In this document: one piece after another, positions 3,353-38,351 of the stretch
Position numbering within the stretch: position 1 is the first letter of the stretch
Layout of the letters: each line of letters starts with the position of its first letter
Source: Bacteroidaceae bacterium
Lineage (GTDB): Bacteria; Bacteroidota; Bacteroidia; Bacteroidales; Bacteroidaceae
NCBI GenBank assembly: GCA_016280445.1
Contig: JAEEGS010000007.1
Span: forward strand, 1-38,351
Reading direction: 5' to 3'
Length of the DNA stretch: 38,351 bases
Notes under the pieces: model-generated
Told to the model about the DNA's origin: nothing
The model's input: only the letters and a program-made list of their open reading frames with translations
The model's database searches: none
Translations under genes and position numbers: made by a program

Positions 3353-3501
3353 TAAAAAAATCCCCATATCATTACGATACAGAGATTTTTTTGTGATTAT
3401 TTGGAATATATAATACCGATGAAGGGATATTGTTTTGGGGATATCGCTTTTTTGAGTTCGGAAATCACTTCTATTTCTCTATTGAACCGGAACACCCACT
3501 G

Positions 3502-3658
3502 CCTCCACTGACTCAGTGGAAGAACCTCCACCTACTCAGTGGAAGAGACAAAATCAATTCGTTCTTGGAATTGATGGATTAGTAGAAGGAATTGATCAAT
3601 TAGTAGAAGGAATTGATGGATTGGTAGAAGGAATTGATGACTACCATCGCCAATAGAA
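3502..3658. repeat. Two adjacent tandem repeats with palindromic segments, in the 3301-3781 intergenic region
   Basis: The 481-bp gap holds no convincing gene. At 3502-3546 two 22-nt copies at 23-nt spacing differ at two positions; the first contains CCACTGACTCAGTGG, a perfect dyad around one central base. At 3567-3629 follow three 21-nt units built on GGAATTGAT and TTAGTAGAA, with a fourth partial copy; the second contains the perfect 12-bp palindrome AATTGATCAATT. The 21-nt period would encode a seven-residue repeat in one frame, but that frame has no start codon. Function unknown. Confidence 0.8.
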
Positions 3659-4790: not shown

Positions 4791-4931
4791 CGCGCAAGGT
4801 ACTCTCGCTCGGAAAAACTCAAATAAATTTGGTTATTCTCTCACTTATCCGTACCTTTCGCTTCGCGCAAGGTACTCTCGCTCGGAAAAACTCAAATAAA
4901 TTTGGTTATTCTCTCACTTATCCGTACCTTT
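4791..4931 (+). repeat. 73-bp tandem duplication carrying the panC promoter
   Basis: Positions 4791-4858 and 4864-4931 are identical over 68 nt with a 73-nt offset. Each copy starts CGCGCAAGGTACTC and ends at the -7 region. Copy 2 has the intact TACCTTTG; copy 1 reads TACCTTTC, so its -7 box has lost the final G. Confidence 0.95.
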
Positions 4932-6185: not shown

Positions 6186-6664
6186 TGAGCAGAATCCTCT
6201 TTATCTGTTTAGGCAACATCTGCCGTTCGCCAATGGCTGAAGCGGTGATGCGAAAGTTGGTGAAGGAACGTGGTTTGGAAGCGAAGTATGAGATTGACTC
6301 GGCAGGACTCATCAGCTACCACGAAGGTGAAGGGGCTGACCCGCGCATGAAGTTTCATGCTAAGAGACACGGGTATCTGCTGACCCATATTTCCCGACCT
6401 GTCCGCGAAATGGACTTCGACCTGTTCGACCTCATTGTCAGCATGGATGACAGCAACTGGGAGCGTCTGCATCGCTTGGCTCCAACGGTGGAAGCGGAAA
6501 CGAAGATAGTCAGAATGACGGATTACTGCCGAACACACGTCATCGACCATGTGCCTGACCCCTACTACGGCGGCGACCAAGGTTTCGAGAATGTGATTGA
6601 GATTCTGGAAGATGCTTGCGAAGGGCTGTTGGAGGAGTTGGAGAAGTTGGAGGGTAAAGTTTAA
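6185..6664 (+). CDS. Low-molecular-weight protein tyrosine phosphatase, 159 aa
   Basis: Cytoplasmic phosphatase acting on phosphotyrosine. The P-loop CLGNICRS places the nucleophile Cys8 and Arg14 at the N-terminus, and the general acid is Asp125 in DPYYGG. Length and layout are standard, so an active enzyme is expected. In many bacteria such enzymes oppose BY-kinases that control capsule export, but here the gene is third in the panC-panD operon with no kinase or polysaccharide gene nearby, so its substrate cannot be inferred from context. The stop codon lies inside the first unit of a heptamer array. Confidence 0.95.
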   Translation: MSRILFICLGNICRSPMAEAVMRKLVKERGLEAKYEIDSAGLISYHEGEGADPRMKFHAKRHGYLLTHISRPVREMDFDLFDLIVSMDDSNWERLHRLAPTVEAETKIVRMTDYCRTHVIDHVPDPYYGGDQGFENVIEILEDACEGLLEELEKLEGKV

Positions 6665-6743
6665 AGTTTAGAGTTTAAAGTTTAAGGTTTAGAGTTGAGA
6701 GTTTAAGGTTTAGAGTTGAGAGTTTAAGGTTTAGAGTTTAAAG
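6660..6743. repeat. Heptamer tandem array, 12 units
   Basis: Twelve consecutive 7-nt units, variants of TTTAAAG, TTTAGAG, TTTAAGG and TTGAGAG. The first overlaps the stop of the preceding gene. The same heptamers recur at 25432-25459. Confidence 0.9.
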
Positions 6744-20015: not shown

Positions 20016-21494
20016 TCAGAGAATGGTCTTTACTGCTTCCAGCATGCCTTTCTCCTGAATGAGGTCGAGGTCTTTCTTGACGAGTGCGGTGAGACCTGGA
20101 ACGGTTTTGTTGAGGTCTTCCTTCCAGATGTTCTCAGCAGCAAGCACTCCTTCAGCCACCTTCTGTGTGTCGCCCGTTGCCCAGAGGTCTTTGAGCAGTT
20201 GCATAATTTCGGGTGCATCGTTGGGTTCGATAGGTGCTCCATCGGCACGCATTCCACCTTTATAGTAGGTGATGATGGCGGCCAAACCGAAGACGAGGCC
20301 TTGTGGAAGTTCGCCTTTTCGCTCCAAATAAACCTTCACGCCAGGGAGGTCGCGAGTCTCGTATTTGGGGAAAGAGTTGAGCATGATGCTCGTCACCTGA
20401 TGGTCAACGTATGGATTGTTGAAACGTTCCAGCACATCGGTTGCAAACTGCTGCAGTTCCTCCATCGGCAGGTTGAGCGTCTGCATGAGTTCGTCGAATT
20501 GCACTTTGTGGATGTACTTGCCCACCACCTCGTCGTTGCAGGCATCGCGCACGATGTTGATGCCGCTGAGGTAAGCCACAGGAGAGAGCACCGTGTGGGG
20601 ACCGTTCAGAAGGGTGACTTTCCTTTCGTGGTATGGCTTTTCGCTTGGAGCGATGAGCACGTTGAGACCTGCTTTCTCGGCTGGGAATTCTGCCTTGAGG
20701 TCGTCGATATCCATGTTCTCAGGCTTCTCGATGACCCACAGATGGAAGGCTTCGCCCTGCACGACAAGATTGTCGGCGTAGCATACTTTCTGCTGAATCT
20801 CAGCGATTTCCTTACGTGGAAAACCAGGCACGATGCGATCGACGAGCGTCGCGCACACATAGTTGTATTTTGTGAACCACTCCTTGAACGCAGCATAGTC
20901 GGCACCGAAGTCATCCTTCCACAACTCGATGTATTGGTAGATGCACTCCTTCAGGTGGTGTCCGTTCAGGAAAATCAATTCGCAAGGCATGATAATCAGA
21001 CCTTTGTCGGCTGCACCGTTGAAGGTCTTGAAGCGGCGATAGAGCAACTGAGTGAGTTTGCCCGGATAGGAAGAAGCGGGAGCGTCGTTCAGTTTGCACT
21101 CGGGGTCGAAAGCAATGCCCGCCTCAGTTGTGTTCGAGATGACGAAACGGATTTCAGGCTGCTCGGCCAGCGCCATGAAGGCTTGATTCTGCGAATATGG
21201 ATTCAGCGCACGGCTGATGCAGTCGATGCGGGTGAGCGAGTTCACTTTCTCGCCATTCAGACGACCCTGCAGGTTGACGTGATAAAGGCAATCCTGGCCG
21301 TTGAGCCAGTCAACCATTCCGCGTTCGATAGGCTGCACCACCACCACGGAGGCGTTGAAGTCAGTCTTCTGATTCATGTTGTAGACAATCCAATCCACAA
21401 AACAACGAAGGAAATTTCCTTCGCCAAACTGGATGATTCTCTCCGGTGCATGGCTCTTCGGAGCCGTGCGAGCGTTCAAAGCTTTAAGTGCCAT
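20016..21494 (-). CDS. uxaB: Tagaturonate reductase (altronate oxidoreductase)
   Basis: NADH-dependent reduction of D-tagaturonate to D-altronate in galacturonate breakdown. It belongs to the long-chain mannitol dehydrogenase family: the N-terminal cofactor motif QFGEGNFLRCF (22-32) and the catalytic stretch RKVTLLNGPHT with Lys292, Asn297 and His300. Total length (492 aa) matches UxaB. Fructuronate or mannitol specificity cannot be excluded by eye, but the overall sequence fits UxaB best. It is monocistronic here, with its own promoter and terminator; uxaA, uxaC and pectin genes are not in the window. Confidence 0.9.
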   Translation of the reverse strand: MALKALNARTAPKSHAPERIIQFGEGNFLRCFVDWIVYNMNQKTDFNASVVVVQPIERGMVDWLNGQDCLYHVNLQGRLNGEKVNSLTRIDCISRALNPYSQNQAFMALAEQPEIRFVISNTTEAGIAFDPECKLNDAPASSYPGKLTQLLYRRFKTFNGAADKGLIIMPCELIFLNGHHLKECIYQYIELWKDDFGADYAAFKEWFTKYNYVCATLVDRIVPGFPRKEIAEIQQKVCYADNLVVQGEAFHLWVIEKPENMDIDDLKAEFPAEKAGLNVLIAPSEKPYHERKVTLLNGPHTVLSPVAYLSGINIVRDACNDEVVGKYIHKVQFDELMQTLNLPMEELQQFATDVLERFNNPYVDHQVTSIMLNSFPKYETRDLPGVKVYLERKGELPQGLVFGLAAIITYYKGGMRADGAPIEPNDAPEIMQLLKDLWATGDTQKVAEGVLAAENIWKEDLNKTVPGLTALVKKDLDLIQEKGMLEAVKTIL

Positions 21495-21525
21495 AGATTT
21501 CTAATTAGTTGTGTAAAATGATGTG

Positions 21526-21557
21526 CAAAAGTACGCATTTTATTCCACACAGACAAA
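21526..21557 (-). promoter_or_regulatory. uxaB promoter
   Basis: Minus strand TTTG (21554-21557), 20 nt, TACTTTTG (21526-21533), full consensus, 31 nt before the ATG. Confidence 0.75.
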
Positions 21558-21657
21558 TCCCCACTCCTTTTTTGCGGAAATCTGCCCGCTAAATGCCCTT
21601 CAGCCGCCCGTGCAGGGAGGGGGTCGGTTCATCTGCCACACCCTCTCAAACGGCACT

Positions 21658-21807
21658 GTCGTTGCCGTAATTACCTCTACGTCGCTACCGTAATTACGGT
21701 TACGCCACTACCGTAATTACGGTAACGACGTTACCTCCGCGGGCTTTACGTCGTTGCCCTCGTGAGCCTTTCGACGCTACCCTCGCGAGCCTTACGACGT
21801 TGCCTCT
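21658..21807. repeat. 23-bp tandem array with palindromic cores (6.5 units)
   Basis: Six exact-length 23-nt units start at 21658, 21681, 21704, 21727, 21750 and 21773, plus a partial at 21796. Each has a left arm like GTCGTTGCC or GACGCTACC, an 8-nt core and a right arm like CCTTAC. Cores in order: GTAATTAC three times, TCCGCGGG, CTCGTGAG, CTCGCGAG. Unit 3 holds the 16-bp perfect palindrome TACCGTAATTACGGTA; the junction of units 3 and 4, GGTAACGACGTTACC, is a second dyad. It sits in the 522-bp gap between divergent uxaB and the TMEM43-family gene; 21558-21657 shows nothing else. Confidence 0.93.
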
Positions 21808-21921
21808 AAAGCACAGCATCAACTCTTTCTCAACCACTTATTCGGGAACAAGCGGCACTGGATGCATTTCATCACCCTCAAAGGGAAAAAGCAGGAGAAA
21901 AAGAACAAAAAACAAAAAATG

Positions 21922-21954
21922 TTTAGCATATATGAAAGAAAAAGCATAACTTTG
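21922..21954 (+). promoter_or_regulatory. Promoter of the TMEM43-family gene
   Basis: TTTA (21922-21925, one mismatch), 21 nt, TAACTTTG (21947-21954), giving a leader of roughly 55-60 nt before the ATG at 22017. Confidence 0.6.
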
Positions 21955-22016
21955 CAACGAAAACTGCAAAAGTTACACATTATATTACTATTTACAAATT
22001 CTAAAAATCTTAACTT

Positions 22017-23333
22017 ATGGCTTATCAAGAAAAAACAACCACGGGTTATGGTACCCGTGTGGGCAATTCGCTCAAGTCGGTTCTCATGGGATTTGTCATG
22101 ATTATCGGCGCAACCATTCTGCTTTTCTGGAATGAGTTCAACTATGTGAAGCAGGACAACAAACTCGATGCTGTGCAGGAGGCTTGTGTTGACATGCCTA
22201 ACCCAGAGAAGAAGAGCGCCGAATTTGAAGGCGAAGTGGTGTGCGCCACTGCTATGGCAACCACTGAGGAGGTGCTGACTGACCAGGAATTTGGCATCAG
22301 CGAGAACGCTATCGGCCTCATTCGCAAGGTGGAATACTACCAGTATGTAGAGCACTCTGAGTCAAAGTCAGAAGACAAGCTCGGCGGCAAGGAGGAGACT
22401 ACCACCACTTACACTTACAAACCAGAATGGGTGAGCAGCCCTGTGAACAGCGCTGACTTCAAGGATCCTGCCTACCAGAACAAGAACTTCACACTGGCTC
22501 AGGTGGAAGAGCAGAAGGTTTATGCCAAGAACGTATCTTTCGGCGCATACGTGCTGAGCGAGTCTCTCATCTCATCCATCAGCTCAAAAGAGGCTGTTGA
22601 GCTCAACGTCAACCCACAGACTCTGCAGTCAATCAACACTTCTGTTGCTAACACATTCTTCGCTGTGAGAGGTGTTTCTGCTGGTGCTGCTGCACCTGCT
22701 CCTCAGCCTGCTGTTGCTGACAGCACTGCTGCTGCTGCCGACAGCGTTGCAACGAACAACAAGGTTGACCTCGAATACGTACACCAGGCTGGCAACACAC
22801 TCTACTATGGCCGCACCGCAAACGCTCCTGAGATTGGCGACGTGCGCATCACATTCGAGAAGGTTGTTCCTGCTAAGGTGACTATCATCGCACAGGTTGA
22901 TGGCAACACCTTCAAGTCTTACAAGACCAAGTATGGTTCATACCAGACTCTCCGCATGGGCAAGATGACTTCTGAGGAAATCTTCCAGGATGACCACGAA
23001 AGCAACAGCATGTGGACTTGGATTCTCCGCATCGTCGGCACACTGCTCGTTATCTCTGGTATCAAGAGCCTCTTCTCATTCGTTGAGACCCTGCTCAAGG
23101 TGGTTCCATTCCTCTCAAGCCTCTTCGCTTTTGGCGTGGGTATCATCAGCACCATCATCGGCCTTGTTTACTCACTCATCGTGATTGCCATCGCATGGGT
23201 GCTCGCACGTCCACTCGTGGGTATCATCATCTTAGTCGTTGCAGGTCTCCTCATCTGGGTATTTGCCTTCAACGGTAAGAAGAAGCTGGCTGAACTCGCC
23301 AACAAAGGCAAGGCAGCCCCAGCAGCTGAATAA
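22017..23333 (+). CDS. TMEM43-family membrane protein, 438 aa
   Basis: Resembles the bacterial branch of the TMEM43/LUMA family (PF07787), whose role in bacteria is not established. A transmembrane helix at 21-38 is followed by a large extracytoplasmic region (about 40-330) and hydrophobic segments at about 332-350, 364-396 and 400-417. The conserved layout of N-terminal helix, soluble lumenal domain and C-terminal helix cluster matches. Residues 219-246 are an Ala/Pro-rich low-complexity insert (SAGAAAPAPQPAVADSTAAA). The sequence shows strong use of a restricted codon set (GCT, CTC, AAG), which suggests good expression. Transcribed alone between its promoter and a terminator. Confidence 0.8.
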   Translation: MAYQEKTTTGYGTRVGNSLKSVLMGFVMIIGATILLFWNEFNYVKQDNKLDAVQEACVDMPNPEKKSAEFEGEVVCATAMATTEEVLTDQEFGISENAIGLIRKVEYYQYVEHSESKSEDKLGGKEETTTTYTYKPEWVSSPVNSADFKDPAYQNKNFTLAQVEEQKVYAKNVSFGAYVLSESLISSISSKEAVELNVNPQTLQSINTSVANTFFAVRGVSAGAAAPAPQPAVADSTAAAADSVATNNKVDLEYVHQAGNTLYYGRTANAPEIGDVRITFEKVVPAKVTIIAQVDGNTFKSYKTKYGSYQTLRMGKMTSEEIFQDDHESNSMWTWILRIVGTLLVISGIKSLFSFVETLLKVVPFLSSLFAFGVGIISTIIGLVYSLIVIAIAWVLARPLVGIIILVVAGLLIWVFAFNGKKKLAELANKGKAAPAAE

Positions 23334-24739: not shown

Positions 24740-25429
24740 ATGAAAAAGAAGTTCAACATCTATTGTGGTCTGCTGATAGCAGCCATCGTGTTCGGAATCG
24801 GCATCCACATGTTTGAAACATGCTACCACATGTACACTGGTGGCAAGGCAGGCATTGAAGCTGCAAGGAAGGGGAGAACAATGGGCGCCAAGCATCAACC
24901 TTTTGAGAGTCTTCAAAGAGTATATAGAATGACAGGGGTGGAAATGATGCCTAAGGGTGAACACATCATGGATTTTGCCACGGGAGACAGCATCGTCAAT
25001 CTGAAAACAGGAGAGAAAATGCCCATCTTGATAGCATCGGGCATCGTGCTGCCTGAAAATGGCAACAGCAGCAGGATGATTGTCATGCAGGGCATCGGTC
25101 ATCTGGGCTTCTTCCTCATCATTGTCTTCTTGGTGGCATTCATCAAACTGGTTGTCACTGTGAACAAAGGAGGCATCTTCGAGAAAAGTATGGAGAGACA
25201 ACTGGCTTGGGGCGGTTGGGCTGTGTTCGGCATGTATGTATTGGGGTGGATCAGCACGCTCTACAATTACATCCTCAACATGCAAGAGTTTGAATTTGAG
25301 GCATACAATATAGAAATCCTCCAAAAGCCCGACATCGCCCTGCTCTACTCTGCTTTCGGCATGTTGCTGATGGGACAGATCTTCAAGATTGGCCGTCAGA
25401 TGAAAGAAGAGCAGGAGTTGACGATATAA
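24740..25429 (+). CDS. DUF2975-family membrane protein, 229 aa
   Basis: Four hydrophobic segments at about 7-24, 119-139, 157-175 and 198-213, with an extracytoplasmic stretch of about 90 residues between the first two. The C-terminal pattern NKGGIFEKS...GMLLMGQIFKIGRQMKEEQELTI is the family hallmark of DUF2975. In other bacteria these proteins are usually encoded beside a small YozG/HTH_26 repressor, exactly as here. The pair's function is not established; a membrane sensor that controls the repressor is a reasonable inference. Confidence 0.85.
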   Translation: MKKKFNIYCGLLIAAIVFGIGIHMFETCYHMYTGGKAGIEAARKGRTMGAKHQPFESLQRVYRMTGVEMMPKGEHIMDFATGDSIVNLKTGEKMPILIASGIVLPENGNSSRMIVMQGIGHLGFFLIIVFLVAFIKLVVTVNKGGIFEKSMERQLAWGGWAVFGMYVLGWISTLYNYILNMQEFEFEAYNIEILQKPDIALLYSAFGMLLMGQIFKIGRQMKEEQELTI

Positions 25430-25431
25430 AG

Positions 25432-25459
25432 TTTAGAGTTTAAAGTTTAAAGTTTAGAG
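25432..25459. repeat. Heptamer tandem array, 4 units
   Basis: TTTAGAG, TTTAAAG, TTTAAAG, TTTAGAG in a row, filling most of the gap between the DUF2975 gene and its partner repressor. Same heptamers as at 6660-6743. Confidence 0.85.
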
Positions 25460-32331: not shown

Positions 32332-32380
32332 ATAATAAAAGCATTTTTTATGGAACATCATCCCCTTTCCATCAAAGCCC

Positions 32381-32472
32381 GTAAAGCTCACGAGGGCACT
32401 GAGGTAAAGCTCATGAGGTTTACGAGCGTAAGCTCATCGGCCAAACGACGTTACATCTACAGGGGCAACGAA
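32381..32472. repeat. 23-bp tandem array, 4 units, reverse orientation of the 21658 array
   Basis: Units start at 32381, 32404, 32427 and 32450. Read on the minus strand they fit the same frame as the 21658 array: left arm CTCAGTGCC, CTCGTAAAC, GTCGTTTGG or TTCGTTGCC; cores CTCGTGAG, CTCATGAG, CCGATGAG, CCTGTAGA; right arms CTTTAC, CTTTAC, CTTACG, TGTAAC. The core CTCATGAG is a perfect palindrome, and the junctions TTACGAGCGTAA and AACGACGTT are dyads. It lies in the 297-bp gap between divergent slyD and the GIN-domain lipoprotein gene. Confidence 0.85.
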
Positions 32473-36391: not shown

Positions 36392-38351
36392 CTATTGGTT
36401 GTTTATTTTCTGTTTGACATATTCAATGTTATCTTTTACTGTTTTTGTATCGGGATGATTGGGATCTAGCACCTTTTCCAAGATGGCGAGAGCCTTGGAA
36501 TAGTATTCCAAGGCCTTTGGGTAGTCACCTTGGTGGTAGTATACAAGACCAATGTTGTTGTAGGATGCGGCAACATCAGGATGTTCCGTTCCCAGCACCT
36601 TTTCCTTGATGGCGAGTGCTTTGAAATGGTATTCCTGTGCCTTGGGGTAGTCTCCTTGGTGGGAGTAGACAGAACCGATGTTGTTGTAAGATAAGGCCAC
36701 ATTGGGATGTTCAGAGCCCAGCGCCTTTTCCCAGATGTCAAGTGCCTTGGAATAGTATTCCAAGGCCTCCTGGTAGGCACCTTGGTTGTAGTAGGACATA
36801 CCGATGTTGTTGTAGGATAAGGCGACATCGGGATGTTCGTTCCCTAGCACCTTTTCCCTGATGGCGAGTGACTTAGAATGGTATTCCAGTGCTTTCGGAT
36901 GGTTTCCTTGGTAGGAGTAGACAAGACCGATGTTGTTGTAAGATGTGGCGACATCGGGATGTTCGGTGCCCAGCACCTTTTTCCAGATGTCAAGTGCCTT
37001 GAAATGGTATTCCAATGCCTTTGGATAGTCACCTTTGTTGTAGTAGACAAGACCGATGTTATTGGAGGATTGGGCGACATAGGGATGTTCCGTTCCCAGA
37101 ACCTTTTCTCTGATGGCGAGTGACTTGAAATAATATTCCAGTGCCTTTGGGTAGTCACCTTGGTTGTAGTAAACATAACCGATGTTGTTGTAAGACAAGG
37201 CGACATTGGGATGTTCCATTCCTTGCACCTTTTTCCAGATGTCAAGTGCCTTGAAATGGTATTCCAGTGCCTTTGGGTAGTCACCTTGATTTTGGTAGAT
37301 AGTAGCGATGTTGTTGTAAGATGTAGCGACATCGGGATGTTCCGTTCCCAATACATTTTCCCTGATGGCGAGTGACTTGAAATGGTATTCAAGTGCCTTA
37401 GGGTAATCACCTTGATTGTAGTAGACAATACCGATGTTGTTGTAGGACGTGGCAACATCGGGGTGTTCCGTTCCCGATACCTTTTCCCTGATGGCGAGTG
37501 ACTTGAAATGGTATTCAAGTGCCTTAGGGTAGTCACCTTGGCTGGAGTAAACACCACCGATGTTGTTGTAGGACAAGGCGACATCGAGATGTTCAGTGCC
37601 CAGCACCTTTTTCCAGATGGCGAGTGACTTGGTAAAGTATTCCAAAGCCTTAGGGTAGTCACCTTGGCTGGAGTAGACAAGACCGATGTTGTTGTAAGAT
37701 GCGGCGACTTCGGTATGTTCCGCGCCCAGCACCTTTTCCCGGATGACGAGTGACTTGGAATGGTATTCCAAAGCCTTAGGGTAGTCACCTTGGCTGTCGT
37801 AGACAAGACCGATGTTGTTGTAGGCAATAGCAACCCACTCACTTTCTTCTCCCTCCTTTGATAATGACTGACGAAGAACCAATTGGTAATAATTGAGGGC
37901 TTTGGAATAGTCGGCAAGATATTCGTGGATAAATTTCCCTGCTTCATTATGCCATTGCAAATTTGTGGTGTCCAACTTCGCCCGCAACTCCAAATAATAG
38001 GCAGCGGAGTCGTTCTGGTGCTGAGCCAAGAATTCTTCGTGGAAACTATAGCAGCGTCTGGCAAGTTCTTCGTTATCAGCGGCATGTACCGCCTTGGCTT
38101 TGGCAAGTTCCTCTTCCTTCATGGAAATCACCTGTCCCTTCTGAAGTTGCTCTGACACCTGGGCACGCACGTCGCCTCGGGTGCGCAGGAGCGAGTCAGC
38201 CTTCGTCAGTTCGCCATTTTCGATGCAGTAGTTCACCTGCCGATAGAAGTCATCCAACTGGTCATAGTCCAGTTCGGAGTAGCGTTTGGCCATGTCGCTG
38301 ATGAGCCGCTCGTTGTTTTCCTGGTCGGCATACAACTTTTGCAGGAGTTTC
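36392..38351 (-). CDS. Tetratricopeptide repeat protein, 5' end beyond the window
   Basis: The frame is open to the last base of the window (reading KLLQKLYADQ at its edge), so the N-terminus is missing. A helical region of about 170 residues (SELDYDQLDDFYRQVNYCIE, then RAKLDTTNLQWHNEAGKFI) leads into eleven consecutive 42-residue TPR units of the kinesin-light-chain type, each with YNNIG, GDYPKALEY and a GxEHPDVA-like end (36437-37822). Two helix variants recur (SLAIREKVLG and ALDIWKKVLG). A short tail KDNIEYVKQKINNQ ends the protein. A protein-interaction scaffold or sensor role is likely, but nothing visible gives its partner. Confidence 0.88.
   Translation of the reverse strand, partial: KLLQKLYADQENNERLISDMAKRYSELDYDQLDDFYRQVNYCIENGELTKADSLLRTRGDVRAQVSEQLQKGQVISMKEEELAKAKAVHAADNEELARRCYSFHEEFLAQHQNDSAAYYLELRAKLDTTNLQWHNEAGKFIHEYLADYSKALNYYQLVLRQSLSKEGEESEWVAIAYNNIGLVYDSQGDYPKALEYHSKSLVIREKVLGAEHTEVAASYNNIGLVYSSQGDYPKALEYFTKSLAIWKKVLGTEHLDVALSYNNIGGVYSSQGDYPKALEYHFKSLAIREKVSGTEHPDVATSYNNIGIVYYNQGDYPKALEYHFKSLAIRENVLGTEHPDVATSYNNIATIYQNQGDYPKALEYHFKALDIWKKVQGMEHPNVALSYNNIGYVYYNQGDYPKALEYYFKSLAIREKVLGTEHPYVAQSSNNIGLVYYNKGDYPKALEYHFKALDIWKKVLGTEHPDVATSYNNIGLVYSYQGNHPKALEYHSKSLAIREKVLGNEHPDVALSYNNIGMSYYNQGAYQEALEYYSKALDIWEKALGSEHPNVALSYNNIGSVYSHQGDYPKAQEYHFKALAIKEKVLGTEHPDVAASYNNIGLVYYHQGDYPKALEYYSKALAILEKVLDPNHPDTKTVKDNIEYVKQKINNQ
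36437..37822 (-). repeat. Eleven tandem 126-bp coding repeats
   Basis: Each 126-bp unit encodes one 42-residue TPR module. Neighbouring units are very alike at DNA level (for example GATGTTGTTGTA recurs in most units on the plus strand), which suggests recent duplication or gene conversion and potential for unit gain or loss. Confidence 0.95.

Follow-up and report, generated by a model that had tools for sequence, protein, structure and literature searches.

Palindromic repeats of bacteria are usually explained either by selection for hairpins or by RAYT transposases moving them. Small dispersed repeats (SDR) of Nostoc, whose units of 21–27 nt are scattered among heptamer repeats, have folds that are supported by compensatory changes. 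Porphyromonas gingivalis, which belongs to the same bacterial order as the host of the DNA studied here, carries a 23-nt system. This system, the BrickBuilt MITE, is described as a spacer-free tandem repeat of imperfect 23-nt units, found at 19 dispersed intergenic copies in which the unit number varies and long stem-loops are predicted; intact copies have leader and tail segments and IS5-like terminal inverted repeats, and the 23-mer has a single consensus (PMC4596501). REP and REPIN elements are described as short palindromes dispersed in noncoding DNA and often arranged as inverted dimers (PMC3733652; PMC3116915), and the CGTC-tagged REP families are reported not to be linked to a transposase gene (PMC3733652).

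Here we analyse an array of palindromic 23-bp units in a window of 38,351 nucleotides (the whole stretch of DNA under study) from a Bacteroidaceae bacterium with a 3.07 Mb genome in 84 contigs (G000). The array is probably one copy of a young, genus-restricted, non-coding family of dispersed palindromic repeats that is REP- or minisatellite-like, non-autonomous and acts at the DNA level. BrickBuilt is the closest known system because of its 23-nt step, and comparison is invited by the presence of another 23-nt array in the same order: both are spacer-free intergenic tandem repeats in many copies, a likeness of layout. Unlike BrickBuilt, the copies of the window family have no flank in common, and several of its unit classes share one 23-bp step. 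It resembles REP and REPIN elements in that its palindromes are short, dispersed and able to form inverted dimers (here of CTC cores), but it forms tandem arrays with a locked spacing, and an unpaired GTAG/CGTC head on an 8–9 bp stem was not recognised in it by eye. With Nostoc SDR it shares dispersed units in the 21–27 nt range, here 23, but not the compensatory changes, as 65 of its joints do not covary. The family works like a REP or minisatellite family, which is a statement about behaviour and not a demonstrated membership in any named one. Searches of a library of open-licence papers yielded no description of it in Prevotellaceae, the sole basis on which we call it undescribed.

The window array (Table 1) has six 8-bp cores of four types at exact 23-bp steps between 21667 and 21789, as the preliminary description had reported. 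TRF finds a period of 23 at 21658–21720 and 21665–21735, and the outer limits come from a lag search. A unit combines one core with a 15-nt joint, and the ideal joint is an odd dyad of 7+1+7 nt, GGTAACG-N-CGTTACC. Shared arms had been described on both sides of the cores. On the left all but GCCACTACC are indeed GWCGYTRCC-like; the right arms, proposed as CYTTAC-like, vary (CTCTAC, GGTTAC, GGTAAC, CTTTAC, CCTTTC, CCTTAC). Several of the cores were said to keep dyad symmetry, which is perfect for GTAATTAC and CTCGCGAG, while CTCGTGAG and TCCGCGGG pair at only three of four positions. A second dyad at the junctions, GGTAACGACGTTACC, is perfect at one junction of the window only, where the sister species G011 reads GTTTACGACGTTGCC. 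Symmetric sites do alternate every 11–12 bp, with dyad centres 11.5 bp apart, but this follows automatically from a palindromic unit with the odd period of 23, and is geometry rather than extra evidence. The symmetry itself exceeds chance (9 of 11 dyad pairs in the unit consensus, p=0.004 against permuted units), and the array is not plain slippage of one unit; on both points the initial impression was right.

Table 1. Positions of repeat features in the window.
Feature	Position	Strand	Remarks
23-bp dyad array, whole	21650..21808	.	~159 bp; lag search, TRF, dyad test
Core 1, GTAATTAC	21667..21674	.	perfect palindrome
Core 2, GTAATTAC	21690..21697	.	
Core 3, GTAATTAC	21713..21720	.	
Joint GGTAACG-A-CGTTACC	21721..21735	.	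sole perfect odd dyad in window array; imperfect in G011
Core 4, TCCGCGGG	21736..21743	.	3/4 dyad pairs
Core 5, CTCGTGAG	21759..21766	+	3/4 dyad pairs; directional
Core 6, CTCGCGAG	21782..21789	.	perfect palindrome
Second family copy, CTCACGAG / CTCATGAG 23 bp apart	32380..32427	.	lag search, core search, alignment to G011
Period-23 array of different sequence class, CCACTGACTCAGTGG odd dyad + 8 nt	3496..3557	.	TRF, lag search, flank comparison
21-bp GAATTGATC-type array joined to the 3496..3557 array	about 3558-3640		

The strictest feature of the family is its fixed spacing, which the preliminary description had seen only in part. Two core classes (GTAATTAC and CTCRYGAG) were searched in noncoding DNA with at most one mismatch and no lag assumed. 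Among the 88 neighbouring core pairs within 75 bp, which include 25 from G011 that partly repeat those of G000, 71 are exactly 23 bp apart, six are at 46, one is at 69, and none is below 23 or at 24–27. The ten remaining distances are 28, 29, 32, 52, 57 (twice), 59, 66, 68 and 75. In most of these pairs no more than one core has arm-like flanks. The 68-bp distance of L214, measured from a CTC dimer to an adjoining GTAATTAC-type array, is genuinely off the lattice and separates two arrays. In 15 triples, neighbouring 15-nt joints are unlike at 43% of their sites. A comparison of G000 with G011 in noncoding DNA away from arrays counts 82 indel events against 682 substitutions, and about 27 indels would be expected under free drift in the 46 pairs of G000, G043 and G029, a rough figure that assumes point substitution and would fall if whole 15-nt modules swap.

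The 23-bp step is common to several classes of core and motif. Among further motifs, which were picked from arrays already seen and are therefore not an unbiased sample, CAGTGGAAG, CAGTGTAAG and TCCACTGAC (one overlapping class), CCAATTAAT, AACGACGTT, GGCAACG and GGTAACG are spaced only 23, 46 or 69 in G000; additional distances occur for TGTTACAAA (9, 32, 60) and CCGATGTCG (9 and 69). G043 and G029 together give AACGACGTT at 23 once, 46 three times and 60 twice, CCAATTAAT at 32 once, and CCGATGTCG at 9 and 14, with no spaced pairs for the remaining tested motifs. The GAATTGATC motif is spaced 21 (20 times), 42 (four times) or 26 (once) in G000. What is conserved is distance, not sequence, which makes the family a good starting point for asking what copies such arrays or what they bind. 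As a tentative idea, some enzyme or oligomerising DNA-binding protein might, largely irrespective of sequence, read or write the DNA between genes in steps of 23 bp, placing different palindromes on one lattice, while other families or relatives would use other steps (21 bp in the second family of the same genome, 22 bp in G022). Such an activity would amount to a lineage-specific DNA ruler.

The period also stands out in a wider survey of the host. In 829 kb surveyed (65 kb noncoding) at a criterion of at least 17/23 identities at a given lag, the places in noncoding DNA number 37 for lag 23 and 28 for lag 46, and those in coding DNA 8 and 2. Neighbouring lags have few noncoding places (22, three; 24, seven; 25, none; 26, one), and lags 8, 9, 14, 16, 21 and 42 are also common, with 11 to 26 places each. 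Because the stretches come from contigs on which matches had been found beforehand, the density in this survey is not representative. The lag-23 peak recurs in G011 (18), G043 (11) and G029 (6), is weak in G034 (3), and was not found in G032 (0 in 200 kb) or G022 (0 in 140 kb, with four places at lag 22). Two genomes of other genera, a weak baseline of 80 kb, have no place at lag 23, and a 132-kb pool of other loci has two at lag 23 and six at lag 22. Array calling at lags 23 and 46 returned 47 arrays; six control periods returned 3, 3, 6, 7, 9 and 13, so part of the 47 arise by chance.

A dyad-symmetric unit consensus (p<0.05 against permuted units) is present in 21 of the 47 period-23 arrays, in 0 of 67 arrays at periods of 14, 16, 18 and 24, and in 7 of 22 at period 21. 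The preliminary description had read the symmetry as a sign of selection, and had suggested testing whether core substitutions are paired across the dyad more often than chance. Selection for symmetry through paired changes was not borne out. Dyad pairing across 65 distinct joints is 0.448, against 0.476 after permuting right halves (p=0.92), and allowing G-U or A-C pairs in 60 strand-collapsed joints gives 0.512 vs. 0.525 and 0.550 vs. 0.572 permuted. The flanks of GTAATTAC cores (48) pair as permuted (0.512 vs. 0.526), and those of CTC cores (37) fall below their permuted value (0.436 vs. 0.570). The window array, compared between G000 and G011, has no change in 48 core bases and four in 75 joint bases, none of them paired. 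The cores do exceed permutation (0.616 vs. 0.539, 105 windows), a signal that fits whole cores coming in two classes; a single unit of 66 joins both classes, the TCCGCGGG core of the window lying outside the search set. The spacing is near-fixed without base-pair covariation.

The array-bearing intergenic gaps, 41 in all, comprise 9 convergent, 11 divergent and 21 tandem ones, with orientations taken from crude ORF-based genes. The length-matched expectation (39 of the 41 gaps) is 6.9, 11.3 and 20.8, so there is no gene-orientation preference. The window array itself lies, as originally stated, between divergent genes for tagaturonate reductase (uxaB, NF002969) and a TMEM43 protein (PF07787). 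One TAnnTTTG site, which we take to be the promoter −7 motif of the host's phylum, faces each gene, at 21526 (−) and 21947 (+), and the array is therefore upstream of both. These placements bear on whether the arrays could be tandem amplifications of transcription terminators or of stem-loops that stabilise mRNA. Such structures do occur: some period-23 units belong to terminator-like hairpins followed by T runs at L033:15224 and L044:17984, and a gene-end hairpin of period-23 units at L135:18154-18221 has stem changes that are paired relative to G011, unlike the window family. The RNA folds are also very stable on both strands (z −5.75 and −6.38), as any palindrome array would give. But the arrays do not keep to gene 3' ends, the divergent share of their gaps being that expected for gap length, and the window array lies between divergent genes, upstream of both TAnnTTTG sites, and has no T run. 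Stem-loops, moreover, would not need an exact 23-nt step and would be expected to covary, which the 65 joints do not. We consider a role of the arrays as RNA hairpins unlikely.

Across genomes we located 30 TMEM43-like loci, 14 of which have uxaB as a neighbour. The gap has no array in 11 of these 14 (183–266 bp), holds a different array in G043 (343 bp), and is 522 bp long with the window array in both G000 and G011. The window array is recent, and its control of the uxaB/TMEM43 pair is unlikely because most of the syntenic gaps do without it. The same counts weigh on the proposal that the arrays are operator-like, bound by a nucleoid protein or a dedicated regulator through which genes close by would be controlled. 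A spacing that stays near-fixed while joints vary, and a dyad symmetry at the level of the motif, speak for this proposal. Against it, promoter-containing gaps are not preferred, the array is missing from those orthologous gaps, and the several core and motif classes on one spacing would not be explained by one sequence-specific regulator; we regard the proposal as improbable. The arrays are presumably mostly neutral to adjoining genes, and the many short palindrome arrays in this gut bacterium more closely resemble a young repeat family peculiar to the genus than a means of switching the genes beside them.

Arrays are present, absent or replaced between species, and they change in 23-bp steps. 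The first G011 stretches allowed 14 of the 47 arrays to be mapped, a set that favours presence because these stretches were chosen around G011 matches, and a 227-kb alignment of the two sister species lists 18 noncoding length differences of at least 12 bp. L147 has four units in one species and two in the other, and L050 shows one exact 23-bp insertion together with concerted changes. A CCGATGTC array of G011 stands where G000 has a terminator-like hairpin, and the second copy in the window is replaced in G011 by unrelated sequence in the same gap. Of 24 core chains, 7 are spanned by a single alignment. In these, substitutions between the sister species number 2/168 in cores, 10/210 in joints and 22/865 in flanks, with no indels; the core rate is lower, but not significantly so (p=0.07 against joints; p=0.41 against flanks). 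A purely mutational origin, in which unit duplication and quasi-palindrome template switching make or correct palindromes with no function and no element, would suit the 23-bp steps, the concerted change in L050 and the alternating orientation of asymmetric CTC cores (11 vs. 2; p=0.02, the units not being independent). Why several sequence classes share one spacing, why the family is confined to one genus and why similar dimers lie at separate loci is not readily explained in this way, and we regard a mutational origin alone as improbable.

The genome-wide search that the preliminary description had suggested did return other copies in the genome and its relatives. The window array has 61 matches in its own genome at E<=10, 45 of these at E<=0.02, and 11 of 45 genomes of the genus, the host included, match at E<=0.001 (8 of 14 among those of good quality). 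In a family-wide draw of 151 genomes, with at most five candidates scored per genome, at least six match, every one from the same genus among the matches listed; nine of the draw are same-genus, and none of the roughly 142 genomes from other genera is among the matches listed. An exact 18-mer compared with 84,980 named genomes matched 18 stretches. Six come from Prevotellaceae/Bacteroidaceae MAGs (three being RGIG3223), and all six have a further core at +/-23 bp with 0–1 mismatch, a feature absent from the 12 others. Crude open frames contain all 12 of those others and two of the six. Dispersed copies thus occur in some species of one genus. Similar pieces also lie at separate places: 18 pairs of separate noncoding stretches share 37–65 nt at 88–98% identity. 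All of these shared pieces contain a core, and in 17 of the pairs they are CTC-core dimers.

A dispersed repeat family of this kind would be built from a module of an 8-bp palindromic core and a 15-bp joint, used in tandem or as inverted dimers. Elements would arrive by insertion into intergenic DNA, and arrays would then grow by unit duplication. If the arrays matter at all, they may do so as double-stranded DNA, and a DNA-binding or DNA-copying protein that reads or writes the spacing could be what keeps the step. The analysis turned up no transposase, binding protein or insertion footprint for the family. Y1 (RAYT) transposases are present in 14 of 45 genus genomes, with none over the cut-off in the four array-rich genomes G000, G007, G011 and G043, and a RAYT-driven REP was rejected on this ground. 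Spread by a reverse transcriptase was likewise rejected, as RVT_1 does not follow the arrays: it is over the cut-off in array-bearing G007, G011, G026 and G029 and in many genomes without matches, and below or not over it in array-bearing G000 (one match below), G043 and G035. Neither of the usual explanations of bacterial palindromes fits the window family, which combines symmetry without covariation with no RAYT over the cut-off in those four genomes.

Other candidates were also set aside. A CRISPR-like array is at odds with cores of only 8 bp and with joints that recur between arrays, and duplication of a target with the 8-bp core is at odds with adjoining cores that can differ. An Rfam search of 21400-22100 gave five matches, all under the gathering score, and a phage collection had no match to the array at E 1e-5, so neither a known Rfam RNA nor a phage origin was retained. 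For the window family, a MITE with leader and tail was rejected for lack of common flanks: the flanks of the window array match none of the other arrays' (70 flanks of 47 arrays), and arrays with GTAATTAC or CTC cores have only scattered flank pieces in common, mostly of 25–45 nt, with one of 134 nt at 74%. The class at window 3496 has an 80–140 bp neighbouring part that is common to six arrays.

Several other repeats were noticed. That class is a composite at window 3496-3640, with the 23-bp CCACTGACTCAGTGG-dyad array beside a 21-bp array of GAATTGATCAATTC-like palindromes; its relatives, in the six arrays with the common adjoining part, lie near L041:3053-3277, L046:6523-6788, L050:6005-6220, L148:3448-3706 and L153:8322-8568. 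Further examples of the 21-bp part lie in L138, L146 and L048. In G022, whose 140 kb lack lag-23 places, palindromes of the TTGCCGTCGG type stand 22 bp apart (three pairs, with one pair at 19) in L196:3310-3400 and L199:6923-7027. Arrays of CCGATGTCG/CGATGTCGG with a 23-bp period are found in G000, G011, G043 and G034 (L050:17283-17431, L175:11917-12066, L206:3024-3098); where those of G000 have GTCGWCG at the centre, the aligned copies of G011 have GTCCCCG. Heptamer repeats (TAAAGTT) occupy window 6655-6743 and 25427-25456, and lags of 14, 21 and 42 are common in noncoding DNA of the seven genus genomes sampled. Window 4791-4931 is an exact 73-bp direct duplication (1.9 copies, 100% matches). 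At window 36468-37824, about 11 tandem 126-bp repeats lie in a minus-strand open frame that probably encodes a repeat protein, TPR being a guess.
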